From Chrysomallon squamiferum (lineage: Eukaryota; Mollusca; Gastropoda; Neomphalida; Peltospiridae), in the NCBI GenBank assembly GCA_012295275.1, contig CM022679.1, positions 25,836,407 through 25,900,406 of the forward strand: a DNA stretch of 64,000 bases, given 5' to 3'. The notes under the pieces are model-generated. The model saw nothing but the letters and a program-made list of their open reading frames with translations. It made no database searches and had not been told where the DNA came from. Each line of letters opens with the position of its first letter. The stretch's first letter is position 1. Both the position numbers and the translations under genes were made by a program. Below, piece by piece: positions 2,697 to 52,198 of the stretch.

Positions 2697-4509
2697 TATT
2701 TTTTTAAAAGCGCCACATAATATAATCATATCGACATACACACATAGACACACACAACAACAACAACAACAACAGCAACAACTGTTTCAAAGTAAATTAA
2801 AATACATAAATTCCTCACAAATAAGGAGAATTTACATAAACAAAACGTAATACTAATATCATACTATTCAATAATTATTTGAGAGATAAAATATTATAAT
2901 TGTAGAACATAATTCATCGAGAAGAAACAGACCTTCCCTGTCAACACATTTCTCTGTGTTACCTTTTTTCTTTTTATTGTTAAAATAATTCACCTGTTTT
3001 TATCTAGGCAGATTATAGTGGTTTCAGTATTTCGTTTGAATGCAATTCATTCTTAATTAAGTCGTTTGGATATAACATGTTAAATTGGTTCTATGTTTTT
3101 CATGTCAATACTTTCGAGTTAAAGAATGAAAATGTAATTCAGTCGTATGAACTCTGTTGTAGAATGGGTAAACTGTTTCTAACGCTGATGTGAGAATATA
3201 AGATAAACAGATAATTTTGATATATTAATTAAGATTTCTGTAATTAATATCAAGTATTTTATAAATTCAGATTATTTTATATTTTTATTATTTCATATTA
3301 AACGGCCCATTTGGCTACTTTGTTATTTTGTTTCTCTTATTACTTCAAAGAATATAACTCATAAGTCATAAGGGGAATAACTCTTATTGTCTTATACAGA
3401 TATTAACATAAAATTGTCCATCTCGTAATTGAGCAACATCAAGTTGAAAATGTATTGTTAAGGAAGTAAATAGTAGAAAAAACAAAATATTACAGCATCA
3501 AATGTATTATTATTTGCAAGTTGTGTCACAAAAGAAAAATCATCAGTTTAAAAATTAGTCTTGACAATTCTTTGCATAAACTATTCTAATCCTGTGTTTT
3601 ATTATTTTAATCACGTATTTAAATATTTTACATGCTTACGTATGCACATTTTCTGCAATGGCTCAGACAATGAATAAACATTTTCTGAATGTAAAGTTTT
3701 TGATATTCTTATTTTAGTCTTGGCATCAACGACTGGATCACGATTCTTGTCTGATGCTGATTTGCACAGCAGCCAACATCTTCCTGATATACATTTTGCG
3801 CTCTCTATCTATAGAAATACAGATTAATTTAATTAATATGTTCACTTATCTAAACATGGTAGATTAATAATCTCGTATATTTTAATCACTGGTAATACAC
3901 AAGAGTTTACAGGTTTCTGTAAAGTATTTAATAACATTTTAAAACGATATTAAATATACCTTTGCAATGTGTGTGTGTGTGTGTGTGTGTTTCAAATGTA
4001 TTTTTAATGTAGAATTAATTTATTAAAAATTAAGAAATAAAAACTTATGAAAGCTGAAACGTAAATAGAAGAAAAAAAAAGAAAAGAAATTTAACATTTT
4101 AGAAAATGGACTGTTGATCTTAATCAAATTCTTTTAAATTAACAAGTAAACAAACGTAATTAATTTTAAATAATATAGGTTTCTCGAGATTCATAACTGA
4201 CTAACTTACTAACTAAATTAATAAATAAATAACAAAATGAGGAAAAGAAAAAGAAGACAACTTCTAATGCTAAATTACCTTTTTCCTCTTCTCTTATTCT
4301 TTGATGTCTACATTGGAGCAGGCAGAGGTTTTACAGTTTTCACTGGTGGAAATTCAGTCTTTTTAGCAATTTTCATTCTCACTCAGTAAACCCTGTGTGT
4401 GTTGAGAATGACTCTTCTTGAAGACCCATACAATGTCCGCTACAGTGCTCTAAGAATGAGAATTTTACAGTTTTGCATTTTTAATGTTTGTAGACATCCC
4501 TGTAAATTT

Positions 4510-4512
4510 AAA

Positions 4513-4544
<32 letters not shown>

Positions 4545-4575
4545 TAATAATAATAATAATAATAATAATAATATA
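4510..4575. repeat. (AAT)n microsatellite in the left inverted arm
   Basis: An imperfect AAT trinucleotide run. Its partner in the right arm is the longer (ATT)n run near 41464-41559, so the array has changed length since duplication. Confidence 0.95.
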
Positions 4576-6663
4576 AATAAATAAATTAATTAATTAATTA
4601 AAAAATGAAAAACGAAGGCAATTTGGAACCTGGTTAAAAATAAGGTGAAGTTTAGTTCGACAGGGCGAGTTTTTCTCCCGCGTTGCCCCCCACCCCTATC
4701 TAATGATCCCTGGTATTAAACAGTTTATGTCCAATAAATAAAATAATATGAAAATGCTTTTTAAACTTGTGAAAGAAACTAATGAAATCTAATCATAACA
4801 ACATAAAATTAAAAAAATATGAAATTAAAAATAAGATGATAACAACTCGAGACTGAGTGAAACTGTGATAGTTTTAAAAAACATGTAACATGATGACAAT
4901 GATTTAAAAAATGTTGACACTTTGTTTTAGAGTCTGATTAGATACATTATGATGTGAAGTTGTTGTTTGACTGGTTACAGTGAGCGCTTGATCTTTTCGG
5001 GTCAATAAGCTTCGCTGGAGCAGTTGAATAACTGATAAATCTTAGGAAACAGGTTGACTAGACAAGCAAAATAATTTAGTTTTATATAATTGTGGAGTTT
5101 AAGTCTACGACAAACGATTTGTCACTCATAAGTCGAGATACCACTGTAAGTATATATATATATAACATGAAACTGTTTAAACTGACACTCGTTTGTGAAA
5201 CCAACGAATTTTTCCTTCTCATGATCTTGTTTGAAAATGCCAATATTTTGTTTTTTTTAATAATATCTTTTCATAAAGAAGAGAGAGAAAGAAAGATTTC
5301 ATGTTATATTTTATGTTTGCATTATGGCTTAGTTGGGGATTTTGGGGTTTTTTTTAAAAGAATATCTTTAAAAAAATTTGGGGGCGATGAGCTAGGTTGA
5401 CCTTCGTGATAGTTGTGCATGATTCGTGGAATTAATACTATTTCAATGTGAGTAGTGTATTTACTGTACTTAGTTTGAAGCAGAAAGCATAAATACAATC
5501 ATACTATAGCGATATTTCGTTACATCATTTCTCACTAAACGATATACGAACGTGGTACTGTATACATTAATGCGCATGTGTATAGGACACTTAACCTAGA
5601 ATTCTGAGGTATGAAATAAACAAAATATATAACATTCCAGGGTCTATCTGATCTGTTGTTATGCCGTGAACAGTTGGTAGCATTCACTAATAATAATAAT
5701 AAGAAGAAGAAGAAGAAGAAGAAGAAGAATAGAATAAAAGAATGTGATGAGGTACATGCGTACTCTGTTGACAGAAACTTTAGGAAATCGTTTCCAGCTC
5801 CAGAGAAAACTAATATAGAAAAAATGAAATAAAAACTACTAATAATAATAAATTAAAATAACATAAATGAAATAAAATAAAACAAAATAAAAAAAGAAAG
5901 AAGTAACTTTAAACAATATACAATTTAGATGTATTCAGTGTCCAAAACAATAGAAATTTATTTAGTCAGCATATCTTGCCACTACGTACATACGTGTATA
6001 CTACATGTAACATTATGGTCGGTTTGTTTCTTTCTGATTTAACGAATGGACATCAGTTTGTGAGCTGAAATGGAACGGACAGCATTATATGCATAATCGT
6101 ACAATCAAAATCTTTGATCTCTACATATTACAGTTTTTTATGTTTTAGGCTCAATAAATGGTTGTTATAATACCAACACTAATAATTCAAACCATGCAAT
6201 CAACAATTTGTTAATACATAAATTCGAAGTTAGTTTTCTAATAATTTTGTTATCTTTTTCTTTTCAGTTGGTAAATTTATCAAAAGTTAATCAATGTTCA
6301 GATTGCTAGAAAGAGCACTGGATAAGACATTTTCTCATATAAAAAGTTTTATATACACATACACACACAGAAACATGCATATTTTTTTTTTGTGGTCTGT
6401 AAATGCTGCGTTAATGTTTCTGATTATCAGTTTTTAAACTAACTCCTCTCTCTCTCTCACAGAAACACACAGAGACACATATAGACATATTAAAAAATCT
6501 TAATAACATAAAATAAAATAAAATATAAATAACCTATCAAATAAATTTTTAATAATTATTATAAAAGGAAAAAAATAAATAAATAAAGGTATTAAATAAT
6601 TAATAAGTACAAGAAGATTTACAAGTTTTGATAAAGCACTTAACATTATATAATTATTATGTG

Positions 6664-7867: not shown

Positions 7868-8067
7868 NNNNNNNNNNNNNNNNNNNNNNNNNNNNNNNNN
7901 NNNNNNNNNNNNNNNNNNNNNNNNNNNNNNNNNNNNNNNNNNNNNNNNNNNNNNNNNNNNNNNNNNNNNNNNNNNNNNNNNNNNNNNNNNNNNNNNNNNN
8001 NNNNNNNNNNNNNNNNNNNNNNNNNNNNNNNNNNNNNNNNNNNNNNNNNNNNNNNNNNNNNNNNNNN
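7868..8067. other. Assembly gap (200 N)
   Basis: Exactly 200 ambiguous bases, a round number typical of a placeholder gap. On its left is the inner end of the inverted-duplication arm; on its right is the broken RS-rich exon. The two flanks may not really be adjacent. Confidence 0.99.
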
Positions 8068-21158: not shown

Positions 21159-21641
21159 TTAAGCAAAACAACCACAAGAAACTCCTTCATATATCATGGT
21201 GTATTCGTACGTTGTAGGCTGACTTTCTTTCTTACATTGTTGATTAAGCTTATAGGTTTTATTGGTCATCAATTTTTCTGAATTGGCTAAACATTGTTCG
21301 GCAGCCCATTCAGCTGTTTTGTTATTAGTAACCATCATGAAATGTTTTTCTTCACCAATTGATGGCTTGTAGAAGCCGATGTACAAACTCAGTTCAGTAT
21401 TTCCAATTTCAAATTCCAGGCCAACTTTAAGTTCGGATGTTAAATCAGAAAGCTCTGCAGCTATGGCATCTGTAGCCTTGACCTCTTTTGGTTTGCATGG
21501 TTTTATTTCTGTATTTGATGGTTCAGGAAGAGAAAGTTTCCATGTTTTTGATGAGAAGTATGGTGGTTTTTTGAACTTGAGAAGTTTCGGGGTTTTATTA
21601 ATGATCTGAAAAGCCAGTCTTTTCTCATTTTCAGGGATGTC
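21159..21641 (-). CDS. Array domain 6 terminal exon with stop codon
   Basis: Residues ~743-902, 160 codons plus TAA. It begins DIPENEKRLAFQIINKTP and has KVGLEFEI, LSLYIGFYKP and NKTAEWAAE. It reads through the position used as a donor in the other copies into a short Cys-containing C-terminus (GVSCGCFA). Confidence 0.7.
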   Translation of the reverse strand, partial: DIPENEKRLAFQIINKTPKLLKFKKPPYFSSKTWKLSLPEPSNTEIKPCKPKEVKATDAIAAELSDLTSELKVGLEFEIGNTELSLYIGFYKPSIGEEKHFMMVTNNKTAEWAAEQCLANSEKLMTNKTYKLNQQCKKESQPTTYEYTMIYEGVSCGCFA

Positions 21642-24600
21642 CTGTAAATAAATATTAAAATCAAATATAAAGTTCATTATAACTGATACATGATATTTCA
21701 GAAATATATATCATGCAGCATAATTAGAAAATCGCTTTTTAATATAGACAAGTTTAAAAAATAATATTTATATCGTCTGTAGAGCCTTGAAATTCTCAGC
21801 CCACAAACAGAAGAAAAGAAAGTACAAAAAGCTAAGCAGAAATATTTTTCATCTACTTTAGGCTTTCGCAAAGCTGAGAAGAAATAATTTAATACAATAA
21901 ACATCAGAACATTTCTTATTTTCTGTTTATTGTTTTAATGTACTGTGTTAATATGAATGATTAATTTGTGTTTTTTATTCTATTAAAATTTTGATGATTT
22001 ACTTATTTTTCTTTCAAATGAGATAGGTGGGTTTCAGTTTACTTATGATTACAAATTTAATTATACAGTAATTTTCTCATTTATTTTCACAAAAATATTT
22101 CCTGTCTTAATAAAAGTAGCATCAATTAAATGTAAGAAGAACATTTAAAAAAAAATTGTCATCCCATTTCAAATTTAAAAAACAACAATTCAAAAGCATA
22201 TGCATATATTTACACATATGCGTCCATATCTTCATGCATACATGTTTACAGTCACATACATTCGTGTATATACATACACAAACATGAAAACAAAACACAC
22301 ACACACACAGACACAGAAATACATACTATATACATACATATTTAATGGTGTATGTAAAAACTGTATGCCGTTCTTCGCTCTTGCTTTGATGTTGGAACTG
22401 AAAGTTTTTTTCACTCTGTGTCGCATCTGAGTCCTGGAGACATTTTTCCACGGCCCATTTAGCTGTTTTACCCTGAGCAATCTGCATGAAATATTTTTCT
22501 TTGCCGTTTTCTGATCTGTAGAAGCCGATGTACAAACTCAGTTCAGTATTTTTAATTTTAAATTCCAGGCCCACTTTAATTTCGGATCGTAAACCACGAA
22601 GATCTGTAGTTATGACATCTTTTGGTTCGTATGGTTTTATTTCTGATTCTGGAGGCTCGGATTGAGAAATGACCCATCCTTGTGATGGGAAGAAGTTTTC
22701 TTTGAACAGGAAAATTTCCGGGGTTTCATTAATGATCTGAAAAGCCAGTCTTTTCTCATTTTCAGGGATATTCTGTAAAATAAATGTTAAAAATTGAAGG
22801 TTAAGTTTATTATAACCGATATATGATATTCCAGAAATAAACATCCTGCAGCATAATTAGAAAATCGCTTTTTAATATAGACAAGTTTAAAAGTAACATT
22901 TATATCTTCTGTCTAGACTTGAAATTCTCAGCCCACAAACAGAAGAAAAGAAAGTACAAAAAGCTAAGCAGAAATATTTTTCATCTACTTTAGGCTTTCG
23001 CAAAGCTGAGAAGAAATAATTTAATACAATAAACATCAGAACATTTCTTATTTTCTGTTTATTGTTTTAATGTACTGTGTTAATATGAATGATTAATTTG
23101 TGTTTTTTATTCTATTAAAATTTTGATGATTTACTTATTTTTCTTTCAAATGAGATAGGTGGGTTTCAGTTTACTTATGATTACAAATTTAATTATACAG
23201 TAATTTTCTCATTTATTTTCACAAAAATATTTCCTGTCTTAATAAAAGTAGCATCAATTAAATGTAAGAAGAACATTTAAAAAAAAATTGTCATCCCATT
23301 TCAAATTTAAAAAACAACAATTCAAAAGCATATGCATATATTTACACATATGCGTCCATATCTTCATGCATACATGTTTACAGTCACATACATTCGTGTA
23401 TATACATACACAAACATGAAAACAAAACACACACACACACAGACACAGAAATACATACTATATACATACATATTTAATGGTGTATGTAAAAACTGTATGC
23501 CGTTCTTCGCTCTTGCTTTGATGTTGGAACTGAAAGTTTTTTTCACTCTGTGTCGCATCTGAGTCCTGGAGACATTTTTCCACGGCCCATTTAGCTGTTT
23601 TACCCTGAGCAATCTGCATGAAATATTTTTCTTTGCCGTTTTCTGATCTGTAGAAGCCGATGTACAAACTCAGTTCAGTATTTTTAATTTTAAATTCCAG
23701 GCCCACTTTAATTTCGGATCGTAAACCACGAAGATCTGTAGTTATGACATCTTTTGGTTCGTATGGTTTTATTTCTGATTCTGGAGGCTCGGATTGAGAA
23801 ATGACCCATCCTTGTGATGGGAAGAAGTTTTCTTTGAACAGGAAAATTTCCGGGGTTTCATTAATGATCTGAAAAGCCAGTCTTTTCTCATTTTCAGGGA
23901 TATTCTGTAAAATAAATGTTAAAAATTGAAGGTTAAGTTTATTATAACCGATATATGATATTCCAGAAATAAACATCCTGCAGCATAATTAGAAAATCGC
24001 TTTTTAATATAGACAAGTTTAAAAGTAACATTTATATCTTCTGTCTAGACTTGAAATTCTCAGCCCACAAACACCAGAAGAGAAAGTACAAAAAGCTAAT
24101 CAGAAATATTTTTCATCTACTTTAGGCTTTCGCAAAGCTGAGAAGAAATAATTTAATAGTATAAACATCAGAACATGTCTGTATTTTCTATATTTTGTTT
24201 TAATGTACTGTGTTAATATGAATGATTAATTTGTGGTTTTAATTTTATTAAAATTTTGATGATTTACTTTTGTGATTTTATGATTACAAATTTAATTATA
24301 CACTAATTTTCTCATTTATTTTCACAAAAATATTTCATATCTTAATAAAAGTAGCATCAATTAAATGTAAGAAGAAGATTTTAATTTTTTATCATCCCAT
24401 TTCAAATTTAAAAAACAACAATTCAAAAACATATGCTTATATTTACACATATGCGCCCACATCTTCATGCATGCATGTTTCAGTCACACACATTCGTATA
24501 TATACATACACAAACATGAAAACAAAACACACACACACACACACACACAGAGACACAGAGACACAGAAATACATAAAATATACATACATATTTAATGTTG

Positions 24601-25419
24601 TATGTAAAAACTGTACGCCGTTCGTCGCTCTTGCTTTGATGGAGGACCTGAAAATTTCCACTCTGTGTCACATCTGAATTCTGGAGACATGTTTCCGCGG
24701 CCCATTTTGCCGTTTTACCCTGAGCAACCTGCATGAAATATTTTTCTTCGCCATCTTCTGATCTGTAGAAGCCGATGTACAAACTCAGTTTAGAGTTTTT
24801 AATTTCAAATTCCAGGCCAGCTTTAAATTCGGATAGTAAACCACGAAGCTCTGCAGTTATGACATCTTTTGGTTCGGATGGTTTTATTTCTGAACCTTTT
24901 GACACAGAATCAGAAGTGTGCCATCCTTCTGATGGGAAGCATCCATCTTTGTACAGGAGAAGTTGCGGGGTTTCATTAATGATCTGAAAATCCAATCTTT
25001 GCTCATTTTCAGGGATGTCCTGTAAAATAAATGTAAAAATCAAAGGTTAAATTCATTATAATTGATACATGATATTCCAGAAATAACTATCCTGCAGCAG
25101 AATTAGAAAATAACTTTTTAATATAGACAAGTCTAAAAAGTAATAGTTACATTTTTTTCTCATGTTCAGGAATTCACTTTAAATAATGGTGAGATCAAAA
25201 TTAATATTAAGTTATAATTGCTGAAAGATTTTATATATTTCAGTATTAATTTTTCAATCTTCTTCTTCTTCTTATTATTATTATAAGTAGTAATACTAAA
25301 TAATAACACAAAAATGTTAAACAGAGTTATCATAGATATACTTTTATAGTGTCTTCAAATTAATTTACAGTATTATTAGTTATTATGTACTGAGCTAATA
25401 GATTTCTTCCGAGTGAATG

Positions 25420-25458
<39 letters not shown>

Positions 25459-27563
25459 GGCACATGCGCACGATAAATAATATTTATGATGATGTAAAAT
25501 AAAGTTAGAAAATGAAAATATTTTTGCTTACTACCTTTTCAATAGTGTAACAAAATGTTTTATCTTCTATTTCAGCACGTAAACTGTAGCCACGATACGT
25601 TTTGTCTTCGCCATCTTTGATTGCTTCTTTGCAGGCCCATTCAGCTGATTTATCGTTCTTTATGTCAATGAATGTTTTTAGACCTTTCGCTGTTGTCTTA
25701 CTAAAGCCAATGTACAAGGATACTTTTTGTCCTAAGAAGGTATATTCTAGTCCACCAGCCACTTCATCTAAACGTCCACTAGGATCTGTCATAATGATGG
25801 TTTCGGTTTCATTAGCTGCGATGGTGCATTCTTTCTCCAAAGTAGTTTTATATTTCATGTATTTATTTTTGTACTTTAGATCATCGGGAGTTTTGTTGGT
25901 AATCTTTAATTGGAGTATATCCTGTACAAAATATTATAAAAATATTACAGTTTGTTTTAATTATTAATGTATTGATTTATTCATTCATGCATAAATAATA
26001 TAAATGTTTTATTATTATTGTTATTATGGGTTGTTGATTGTTGTTGCTGTATTATAACGTATATCTGTATATTTGGTTCTCTAACGTATTTTTTTCCAGT
26101 TGATAAACTAATTTGTTAAACACCTTTTGTTTTAATAGATCATTTGAACCTATTAAGAGTGGAGACAAATCTTATTTACACTAGTGTTACTCAGCAAAAG
26201 TACAGCAAGAGTATGTATATTAAATGTAAAAAACAAAATCATCAAATTAATAAAAATGACATAAATTAAATCCATTATTTCTCACAACAAAATGTAACGA
26301 CAGAATACCCATTTTCATATATACATAGAGAACTCTGTTATATTATTAGGATTCAACACTTATTAAAATAATTGCAATATAATGTACAGACTGAATACAA
26401 GAGACATGTTTTGTATTTAAGGTGTATGTATGAATATAGCTATGCACAATGTTTAAAATACGTGATTAAAAGCAGGCTTGGCAAATGTAGACCATCATTA
26501 TTAATTTTTTGATTGAGCTGTCTGAGTTATGAAACTAATGTCGAGGTTTTATTTAAAAAAAAAAAATTAATTTCATTTTATTTTTTCGGTGTGTTCTTTT
26601 AAAAAAAATCTATTAATATCTTTATTTATTTATTTATTTAATTATTTATTAAGTATGTACTTATTTATTTATTACATCATGCAATAATTTTATATTCGCT
26701 CAAAAATACTTTTTGTGTATATATGTGTGCGTATGTGTGTGTGTATGTGTGTGTGAAGTAAAGTATATTAAACTGACCTTTCTAATAGTGAAAGCGAACT
26801 TCTTAAACTTTGATTTGATTGGATTCGCTGGGCAACATGACAGATGGTAACCTTTATCTGTCTTGGTCTTATCAATCCCGTTACTGTTATTCTCACAAGC
26901 CCACTCTGCTGATTTATTCTTATCAACAGCTATGAAAGACTTGTAGTTACCTCTCGAAGGATTCTCAAACCCAGTGTAAAAGTTCAAGCCAGTTCTTCCT
27001 ATTTCAAATTCGACGCCACCTTTCACACCTTCCCATGTAGCTTGACGATTTGCGACTTGTCCACACCCTGTCTGACTGGGTCTGATGTGTTGGAGATCAG
27101 GAGAAGTAAACCATTCTCCTTCTTTGAAATAACTTGATTTTAAATGGAGGTTGCTGTTTGTTTGATTATTGACCTCAATTTCCAGAGATCGGAATCTCTG
27201 GGAGAATTCTTTAGTTCCCTCAATATATTCCACACCTGTCTTCAGTCTGTTTTTAAAATAAAAACGCACAACTAAAATATCCATCATTAAGATAATTAAC
27301 ACAGGATATTTTTCTTTCTTTTTTCTTTGCTATTTTAACTGTTAAGTAGCACCACATTATTCTGAGATTAATAACATGTAACATATTATTGATTTTCCTA
27401 GTTAGCAAAAATATAATTAACCAAAGCTGATTTGATTATGCAAAGTAAGGATGCCATGTTAAAATATGTTTTGTATGTTTTAAAATGTATCAATAAATTA
27501 ATTACATAATTATTTATATCATTAATTAACCGGTTAATATAAACATTCTACTATAAATGTAAA

Positions 27564-27617
<54 letters not shown>

Positions 27618-27698
27618 ACATAATACTAACGCATTACTAGCAGCTTCTGAAGTCAACAATTTTGCGGCACCCGACACTAGATTACCCAACCAGGCCAT
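21159..27698 (-). CDS. Six-domain tandem exon-repeat protein, possibly actinoporin/aegerolysin-like
   Basis: Seven minus-strand exons join without a frame break: 27631-27698, 26778-27246, 25535-25921, 24588-25019, 23470-23904, 22338-22772, 21159-21641; 2709 nt, 902 residues. The first junction is split 2+1 and all later ones are phase 0. Exon 1 encodes a short amphipathic, Ala/Leu-rich N-terminus starting MAWLGNLV; I see no classical signal peptide. Each later exon is one whole domain of ~130-160 residues sharing N-x-T near the first strand, G-[GL]-[VL]-E-[FY], a Y-x-G-F strand, and K-[ST]-A-x-W-A. The pattern (first-strand N-x-T, G-W, I-x-P, later F-x-x-P) recalls actinoporin-like or aegerolysin-like beta-sandwiches, but only loosely. 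No other repeat has its own exon 1, which favours one gene over six. The alternative is six independent genes with unseen first exons. Confidence 0.7.
21788..22919. repeat. 1132-bp tandem duplication, copy 1
   Basis: Apparently identical to 22920-24051, covering one domain exon plus intron sequence. Identity continues ~20 bases past 24051 and stops near 24072, where CAGAAGAAAAG changes to CACCAGAAGAG. A diverged third unit follows from about 24073 to 25140. Confidence 0.9.
22338..22772 (-). CDS. Array domain 5 exon (identical to domain 4)
   Basis: Residues ~598-742. This is the exact copy of the exon at 23470-23904. If the duplication is an assembly artefact, the true protein has five domains and 757 residues, still in frame. 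Confidence 0.6.
22920..24051. repeat. 1132-bp tandem duplication, copy 2
   Basis: Second copy of the unit at 21788-22919, directly adjacent. The open frames and microsatellite lengths inside are the same in both copies, which is unusual for an old duplication. Confidence 0.9.
23470..23904 (-). CDS. Array domain 4 exon (identical to domain 5)
   Basis: Residues ~453-597, 145 codons, phase 0. It begins NIPENEKRLAFQIINETP, with KVGLEFKI, LSLYIGFYRS and GKTAKWAVE. The exon and its flanking introns appear base-for-base identical to 22338-22772 at an offset of 1132. Confidence 0.65.
24588..25019 (-). CDS. Array domain 3 exon
   Basis: Residues ~309-452, 144 codons, phase 0 at both ends. It begins DIPENEQRLDFQIINETP and has KAGLEFEI, LSLYIGFYRS, GKTAKWAAE and TYNIKY. 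Donor TAT|GTATGTAT is followed within ~30 bp by a (GT)n tract. Confidence 0.7.
25423..25452. repeat. (CA)n microsatellite
   Basis: A CA run in the intron just downstream (gene sense) of array domain 2. Similar (CA/GT) runs sit near the donors of domains 1, 3, 4 and 5. Confidence 0.95.
25535..25921 (-). CDS. Array domain 2 exon
   Basis: Residues ~180-308, 129 codons, phase 0 at both ends. Motifs: ITNKTP, AGGLEYTF, VSLYIGF, DKSAEWAC, FCYTIEK. Acceptor TTTTGTACAG, donor AAG|GTAGTAAG. It is the shortest repeat, with a shortened and charged loop between strands 1 and 2. Confidence 0.7.
26778..27246 (-). CDS. Array domain 1 exon
   Basis: Residues ~23-179. The exon begins with a linker/helix and then the domain. 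Motifs seen: VNNQTN, EGEW, IRPSQT, KGGVEFEI, LNFYTGFENP, NKSAEWAC, FAFTIRK. Acceptor AAAAACAG, donor AAG|GTCAGT. This is the most divergent copy together with domain 2, and the only one with an N-terminal extension. Confidence 0.7.
27631..27698 (-). CDS. Array gene exon 1 (start codon, amphipathic N-terminus)
   Basis: 22 codons plus 2 nt. The ATG is preceded by a purine-rich context (GAAAGA) and the exon ends GC|GTTAGT. The next exon supplies the third base, giving Ala23. Ser/Ala/Leu-rich helix-like sequence of this kind precedes the beta-sandwich in membrane-inserting proteins of the actinoporin type, which is one reason for the tentative family call. Confidence 0.65.
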
Positions 27699-27818
27699 TC
27701 TTTCTTCAGTTCTTTACTTGATTTCTTCTTTTCCCCTTGTCATCGTTCGACTGGTTAGTTAACACTGTCTGACATTGTATGCACCAATCATGTAATAAAC
27801 TAACAAAGCGCTCTTCTC

Positions 27819-27827
27819 TTTTTATAT
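27819..27827 (-). promoter_or_regulatory. TATA box of the domain-array gene
   Basis: Reads GATATAAAA on the minus strand, ~120 bp upstream of the ATG at 27698. A TATA element here would place transcription start near 27790 and leave a ~95-nt 5' UTR. The assignment rests on motif and spacing only. Confidence 0.45.
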
Positions 27828-27898
27828 CTCGGAGTCGTTACTAATAAACAAACCTGTCCAGCGTAATTGCTATCGTAGATTTCACGGAGAAATACGCA

Positions 27899-28099
27899 TA
27901 CAAAGACCTCGTACACATGTACTGTGAATTTAATACAGTAGTGTTATTTCTCGGGAAAATGTACGTACAAAGACTTCGTACACATGTACTGTGAATTTAA
28001 TACAGTAGTGTTATTTCTCGGGAAAATGTACGTACAAAGACTTCGTACACATGTACTGTGAATTTAATACAGTAGTGTTGATTTATCGGGAACTCCTAT
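27899..28099. repeat. 67-bp tandem repeat, three copies
   Basis: Units start TACAAAGAC at 27899, 27966 and 28033. The third diverges at its end. Each unit holds GTACACATGTACTGTG and AATTTAATACAGTAGTGTT. The array lies just upstream of the TATA element of the domain-array gene. The decayed flank at 20.6 kb has only one unit. Confidence 0.92.
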
Positions 28100-50829: not shown

Positions 50830-52198
50830 TTAGCTCTGTGCTAGATCACCGTACTGCATCTGATACTGGTGAAGCTGTTGTTTTAACTTTACTACTGCTT
50901 CTACAGCTTCGGCCCTGCCTCTGCTTTCTGTCTCGAATTTGGCGTTCTGAGTTTTGAACACTGCTTCCAGGGTCTCAATGCGCTTTTCATATTTCTCTTT
51001 CATGTTGTCTATCTCGGCTCTGAGAGCTTTCACTGTCGTGTCATACTTGCTTTTCTGTTTGGTGATAATTTCTTTCAGTGCCTCGATCTCTTTGATTCTG
51101 GCTTCCATGTCAGCTTGTGTAAAATACTGATCCTGTTCTTGCGATCTCCCGACAGAACTGGTCTGTGTTTCTTTTGTGATCTGGTTTGATGAATTTGACT
51201 GCTGGCTGCTCATTTTGTTTTCGGCTGAAGGTCCTTGTGAATCTGGAGCTGATGGCACACAGGAGTCTGGACTTGTAGGAATGCTGGTTTCTGGTTCTGA
51301 CTGGCTGCTCAGTGTACGACTCACTCTTTGACCTCGCACAATCTTTGACTTTCTTTTTGGTGGAACGGGTCGTCCATCTTCTGCCAGCTTTGGACTATTC
51401 ACTTGCAGACTAGGGGTGCTGCTGGCAGAATTGTGTCGAAGAACAACATCATTATCTTCAGCAGGAAAATGACTGTCGCTGAATTCCAGCGGAGACAAAG
51501 AAGCCTCAGTTACATCTGTGTTACTCTTTCTTTGAGCAGCTGTGTCTTCAAACCGCAATCCTTCAAGATCCAGGATGCCTTTGTTCACAGAACTGGCTTG
51601 AAGAACAGGATGCTGATCATCGCTTTGAGACAATCTTAAAAGATCTTCAACTGGAACAGGTTCAGGTGTTCTGGAACCAGAGTCGTATTCGAGTTCAAAC
51701 ACGATATCAAAATAATTGATAAGCATGAACGCTAACTGCTGTGCTATATCTGCAGTCATCATGAACAGCTCTGGATTGTCATCCATGTGACGAATAATGT
51801 TAGGACCGAACACAGTCGCAATGTTGAGCATGGACATCTTGTTTACAGAAGAATGCTGTCCAACCGCATTTAACATCTGACAAAGGTATTTCAAAATGTT
51901 GTAATTATCAACAGGCAGGTGAGGCATATAAGCTTTCAAGTCAGCAACCACGTTCAGTTTGACAGATTCTTCTTTGGCATCGAGGAATCGTAAGGCAAAA
52001 TTCATGAATTTCTGATAATGTTTGCATGGGATTATGGACTCTGGAAGTTCTCGTAGATACAATTTGAGCAATGAAGAGACGCTGTGGACATCAGCCTCGT
52101 ACTTTGCTAGAGAAACTTGTTCTCCACAGTCAAATTTTTCTTTTAAATCACGTATTACACTTGCTCTTCCTGGCAGTCTAAACACAAACAGAAAATAT

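Follow-up and report, generated by a model that had tools for sequence, protein, structure and literature searches.

We analysed a 64,000-nucleotide (nt) stretch of the genome of the gastropod Chrysomallon squamiferum (assembly GCA_012295275.1, contig CM022679.1, positions 25,836,407 to 25,900,406; hereafter the window, with positions counted from its first letter). Its minus strand holds a gene of seven assembled exons, running from 27698 down to 21159, which encodes six tandem domains. We give a probability of about one half to the reading that this is an open gene of an animal family of actinoporin-like sandwiches, and that its product may be a multivalent membrane or glycan binder with an N-terminal membrane-acting segment and a role in defence. 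To an initial annotation made from the sequence alone, the present analysis adds a family of paralogs that vary in domain number, and the divergence of the first exon between conserved flanks.

Exon structure and domain repeats of the window gene

The seven joined exons amount to 2709 nt, i.e. 903 codons including the stop, as counted in the initial annotation, and encode 902 amino acids (aa). GT..AG was found at every exon border. The junction phases are 2,0,0,0,0,0, which confirmed the earlier description of a first junction split 2+1 and five inter-domain junctions in phase 0. For the donor of exon 3, two positions one codon apart can be read (AAAAG/GTAGTAAG or GTA/GTAAGC, both phase 0). 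Exons 2-7 contain one domain copy apiece, of about 130-150 residues. The features are as follows; domain classes A, B and C are those of the domain tree described below.

27699..27998, minus strand: promoter with a TATA-like box (about 27820-27826) and 5' untranslated region (UTR), common to six paralogs whose sequences were compared side by side
27631..27698, minus strand: exon 1, variable N-terminal peptide MAWLGNLVSGAAKLLTSEAASN plus 2 bases, a candidate for a membrane helix; the donor is GTTAGT (phase 2)
26778..27246, minus strand: exon 2, remainder of the N-terminal stretch and domain 1 (class A), from assembly, tree and AlphaFold model
25535..25921, minus strand: exon 3, domain 2 (class B), donor possibly one codon on, from assembly and tree
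24588..25019, minus strand: exon 4, domain 3 (class C), from assembly and tree
23470..23904, minus strand: exon 5, domain 4 (class C), from assembly and tree
22338..22772, minus strand: exon 6, domain 5 (class C), same sequence as exon 5, from assembly
21159..21641, minus strand: exon 7, domain 6 (class C, last-exon type), tail EGVSCGCFA and stop, from assembly; paralogs end in GVSCGCLG and close variants
21786..24073, no strand: exact tandem duplication, in which 21786-22941 equals 22918-24073 (1156 bp identical, period 1132)

The window contains one clear exon 1 start and one promoter copy, and a reading as six separate genes was therefore rejected on sequence. Paralogs likewise have one promoter, one first exon and, where found, one last exon with the shared tail. 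These sequence comparisons support the reading as a single gene, in agreement with the initial annotation.

The domains are repeated beyond chance: in a whole-genome search domain 1 matched all five other domains of the gene (E 4.8e-11 to 9.4e-7), and an alignment of the five distinct copies revealed 16 invariant columns. Three of the four motifs that had been reported to recur once per exon (N-x-T, Y-x-G-F and K-[ST]-A-x-W-A) are present in the translations of all six domains, whereas the fourth, G-x-[VL]-E-[FY], is exact in domains 1 and 2 only, the form common to all six being G-[VL]-E-[FY]. N-glycosylation was considered as the main reason for N-x-T and is doubted, because the turn is also present at the corresponding position of Cry34Ab1, which is bacterial.

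The exact tandem repeat encloses exons 5 and 6, which are 100% identical. Six copies were assembled as initially described, but five are distinct, and misassembly could account for the sixth. The repeat unit has an older copy in exon 4 (86% identity over a 300-nt piece).

Fold and similarity of the domains

AlphaFold modelling of domain 1 resulted in a mostly beta structure (predicted local distance difference test, pLDDT, 74.8; predicted template modelling score, pTM, 0.73). A short helix precedes strand 1, and there is a second helix (113-120), into which K-[ST]-A-x-W-A (111-116) runs. Structure comparison with VIA-align on 995 of the top 1000 chains of Foldseek placed the actinoporins first (sticholysin II 15.0, FraC 14.9, Fav 14.3, bryoporin 14.1, equinatoxin II 13.9). 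After them came Cry34Ab1 (13.1; at 22% the highest identity among the best 50 of the 995), fungal lectins (13.0-12.5), HALT-1 (12.8), nakanori (11.3), nuclear magnetic resonance entries of actinoporins (11.5-9.2), TDH (10.7-10.5) and aegerolysins (9.7-9.3); the first unrelated row scored 6.5. Independently of the structures, in PDB sequences a profile of 26 family domains (alignment A1, see below) had exactly one match at E <= 10, which was Cry34Ab1 (E 4.4e-4, about 85 residues covered), and the first domain of paralog G2580 alone detected the same protein at E 7.7e-4. The earlier guess of an actinoporin-like or aegerolysin-like sandwich, for which structure prediction of one domain against these families and fungal lectins had been proposed, therefore held for domain 1. 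The model supports placing domain 1 in the actinoporin-like/fungal-lectin/aegerolysin fold group, whose beta-sandwich is familiar from the pore toxins of sea anemones, and from their sequences classes B and C probably share the fold of class A.

Searches with family profiles revealed no window query above a curated cut-off in Pfam/NCBIfam; for the 26 domains the best E-values (0.0099 and 0.0023) both belonged to unrelated families. Neither actinoporin PF06369 nor aegerolysin PF06355 was matched by six window queries (E <= 10) or by the 26 domains (E <= 1). A single-domain paralog had as its only match in PDB sequences an unrelated protein (E 0.51). Among 5.8 billion protein sequences, no match was found for exon 1 plus domain 1 (E <= 0.001, 44 candidates), for the full protein (E <= 0.001, 7999 candidates scored) or for the 26-row alignment (E <= 1, 1462 candidates); the animal coverage of this database was not gauged, so these searches are no proof of rarity.

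Actinoporins and their likes (sticholysin, FraC, equinatoxin, Fav, bryoporin, HALT-1) consist of one domain of about 20 kDa, whereas the window gene encodes six, without a PF06369 match and without an evident signal peptide. They carry an N-terminal amphipathic helix before strand 1; in the domain 1 model a putative helix spans residues 11-17, with low confidence in residues 1-14. A sphingomyelin/phosphocholine site and an aromatic cluster are further features of actinoporins. The aegerolysin family is linked to our domains by the sequence similarity to its member Cry34Ab1, yet its own profile is unmatched. Fungal fruit-body lectins (Agaricus bisporus, Sclerotium rolfsii, Boletus, Xerocomus) have one domain of about 142 residues and were not among the sequence matches; nakanori, a single chain of 202 residues, was not significant by sequence.

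According to PMC4229197, Cry34Ab1 (Gpp34Ab1, 4jox) is a single 14-kDa bacterial protein whose fold is most similar to actinoporins (there given as about 20 kDa) but lacks their N-terminal helix. An aegerolysin review (PMC9505663) describes Cry34Ab1 as acting on membranes with a partner, and its main text does not contain the words tandem or multidomain. According to PMC8778704, actinoporin-like proteins occur in a number of phyla; molluscs, polychaetes, a crustacean and a brachiopod are among the carriers. No multi-domain actinoporin is described in the accessible parts of PMC11896702 and PMC5762905, and no multi-domain, tandem or prenylated form turned up among the papers listed by the literature searches, which left most subscription papers outside, so that absence is unproven.

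Paralogs, domain history and the first exon

A search of the genome (404.6 Mb, 22 contigs) detected 31 matches for domain 1 (E <= 0.001) and 32 for domain 6 (E <= 0.01). An iterated profile run over 14 loci and the window gave 37 distinct matches, among which a broken exon may count as two. Alignment A1 comprises 26 of the 37 and leaves out the identical window copy, an identical copy on contig C1 and nine broken or fragmentary matches (one at 23.988 Mb, two last-exon pieces at 23.999 Mb, three at 24.81 Mb and three at 25.827-25.828 Mb). The single-domain copy L017, itself apparently frame-broken near its start, is included.

Sister genes of the same genome differ in domain number. The gene at C15:25718834-25722735 (minus strand) is open throughout, with five exons, phases 2,0,0,0, four domains and 622 aa, and its tail reads EGVSCGCLG compared to EGVSCGCFA in the window gene. 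A C15 gene at 23.995 Mb has five domain exons with a frame broken in the last, and for G2580 (C15, 25.798 Mb) and G2581 (25.806 Mb) only domains A and B lie within the fetched sequence. The C5 gene at 7.34 Mb has seven domains, the first two sharing one open frame; the final codon ahead of the donor of the sixth domain is an in-frame TAA, which implies that the seventh may not be translated. At this C5 locus (L015:5790-6656) the two class A domains are joined by a stretch that resembles the usual intron start and reads as linker, and the intron therefore seems shortened and made coding.

Further relatives were noted beside these genes. At L010 a first exon (2306-2377) 67% identical to that of the window is followed by domain exons (2877-4954), the first with a stop, and L029:4752-6162 contains class C fragments with stops. 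Three single-domain relatives (L016:3301-3774; L018:4233-4706, minus strand; L017:3576-3995) have a basic stretch and then CVVS before the stop. A 4.9-kb segment (L016:2-4885) on contig C15 is 98% identical to L018 (reverse) on contig C1 and shows, by eye, reverse-transcriptase-like frames; we read it as a recent duplication or a duplicated haplotype.

A domain tree of 28 rows (the 26 of A1 and two pieces from broken exons) separated class A (position 1, plus position 2 in two genes), class B and class C, with support of 96/99 for B and C against the rest, 100/98 for B and 99/98 for C. Within class C, window domains 3 and 4 group with the third domain of the 25.72-Mb gene and a 25.827-Mb piece (98/98), and C5 domains 4-6 with one domain from the 23.995-Mb gene (99/98). 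C5 domain 5 pairs with C5 domain 6 (100/99), and window domain 5 has the same sequence as window domain 4. Class C exons were therefore duplicated recently and separately in at least two genes. For older duplications the tree gives no firm order, and the two single-domain copies, which join on long branches, are placed tentatively. Median ratios of nonsynonymous to synonymous divergence (dN/dS, NG86, open-frame domains only) were 0.82 for class A (28 pairs, 0.53-1.53), 0.89 for B (15 pairs, 0.43-1.80) and 0.68 for C (45 pairs, 0.23-1.48), which indicates that constraint is weak, perhaps with some diversifying selection mixed in.

Promoter and 5'UTR are common to the seven genes with a first exon. 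Each of the seven has a single GTTAGT within 160 nt downstream of its ATG, always in phase 2, which supports the first-exon model across paralogs. The coding part of this exon ranges from 20 to 107 nt; the ATG used in the C5 gene sits further downstream than in the others. The nearest relative of the window's exon 1 peptide is MACFGKVVSGAKQLFTSEAASN. Mean pairwise identity of aligned bases (21 pairs) was 55% for the coding part of exon 1 against 82% in both upstream pieces, the 110 nt next to the ATG and the preceding 190 nt; over all columns, gaps included, the values were 33%, 67% and 72%. Shuffling one exon per pair gave 47% (105 shuffles), so that most first-exon pairs barely exceed chance similarity: identity is 44-70% in 20 of the 21, the exception being the window and 24.81-Mb genes at 87%. 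The first exon thus diverges fast while its flanks stay conserved. Within the promoter region, window positions 27879-28079 consist of three tandem 67-bp units, of which the later two show 88% identity to the first.

Possible roles of the protein

The predicted product has one short variable N-terminal segment, six putative sandwich domains, one per exon, and a conserved cysteine-containing tail. The sandwiches would jointly bind membrane lipid headgroups or glycans, gaining avidity through multivalency, and the N-terminal segment, placed like the pore-inserting helix of actinoporins, might embed in or disrupt the bound membrane. As regards insertion, the segment occurs once per chain and is variable. 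The protein could serve in defence, as an immune effector or an offensive or defensive toxin, with domain number shifting through phase-0 exon duplication and the first exon diversifying fast. Membrane or glycan binding, helix insertion and the defence role are inferred.

Several results weigh against this reading. The AlphaFold input consisted of five rows, the five distinct window domains; the other four models of the run reached pLDDT 54-67, and domain 1 is the only domain with a model, which bears on the fold of classes B and C. Searched singly against PDB sequences, window domain 1 matched Cry34Ab1 at E 0.11 only, and domains 2 and 4 had no match at E <= 10. E-values around 1e-3 were also reached by unrelated families (MutT, 0.0023 among 26 members), and the weight of the Cry34Ab1 match therefore depends on the structure comparison pointing the same way. 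The whole protein scored E 8.3e-5 against GD_N (23.3 bits, cut-off 29.6) with no single stretch passing; GD_N membership was rejected as noise from repeats. At the N-terminus no signal peptide is evident, as the initial annotation had stated, and the first-exon peptides of the seven genes lack any extended hydrophobic run (highest Kyte-Doolittle mean over 11 residues 0.15 to 1.49). The amphipathicity that the annotation had also reported is modest and weak: 138 of 2000 shuffles reach it for the window gene, and 60 to 317 of 2000 across the seven genes. The first exon of one paralog codes for just seven residues. The closest pair, G2580/G2581, has pN 0.089, pS 0.067 and an intron divergence of 0.081, so that near-neutral drift fits as well as selection; this pair was the one formal test for positive selection and was not significant (Fisher p 0.45). 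Stops lie inside the 24.81-Mb and 25.827-Mb copies, and with several paralogs broken, part of the family decays.

The main rival is a tandem lectin, in which glycan-binding sandwiches would agglutinate or block microbes or predators without forming pores, the N-terminal segment being a variable linker or sorting signal. By analogy with fungal lectins this is conceivable and, in our view, rather unlikely: actinoporins have the top structure scores and align over more residues than lectins, and the only link of the family at sequence level, Cry34Ab1, belongs to the aegerolysin family and, in the accessible text on it (PMC9505663), acts on membranes with a partner. Next stands a host-cell protein anchored to membranes from the cytosol and acting in vesicle or membrane scaffolding or cell-autonomous immunity. 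It would suit the missing signal peptide, the conserved cysteine tail of the multi-domain genes and the CVVS end of the single-domain paralogs after its basic stretch, which resembles a CaaX prenylation box. The multi-domain tail, however, is not a CaaX box, and an arms race would account for the fast evolution and the changing copy number more readily than housekeeping, so that we hold this role to be improbable.

A further possibility is that the six-domain form owes something to misassembly or belongs to a decaying array, and that the true gene has five domains. The 1156-bp repeat is without a single difference, the assembly has runs of N and carries the near-identical 4.9-kb segment on two contigs, and broken paralogs exist. 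However, older diverged copies of the duplicated unit, window exon 4 and C5 domains 5 and 6 (dS 0.07), demonstrate that unit duplications do occur, and we consider an artefact doubtful; a multi-domain reading is independent of this question, since five distinct domains remain.

Actinoporins act as separate subunits. A bolder form of the actinoporin-like reading, which we put forward as speculative and hardly probable, is a covalently chained actinoporin, with fused sandwiches, one diversifying inserting cassette (exon 1) and a conserved promoter, the family being a modular arsenal for defence or poisoning that can be reconfigured quickly. If so, domain count would tune avidity or size, and exon 1 would be the arms-race surface. 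A natural concatemer would allow testing how many binding domains or inserting helices a pore or lesion needs, and the divergent first exon between conserved flanks would be a clean system for the diversification of membrane-active segments.

The window as a whole has a guanine-cytosine content of 28%, and no Rfam match was found in it at gathering score. A 200-N assembly gap (7868-8067) lies inside a minus-strand reading frame rich in arginine and serine (RS-rich), and a minus-strand open frame at 50830-52197 encodes a RhoGAP domain (PF00620, E 1.5e-33).

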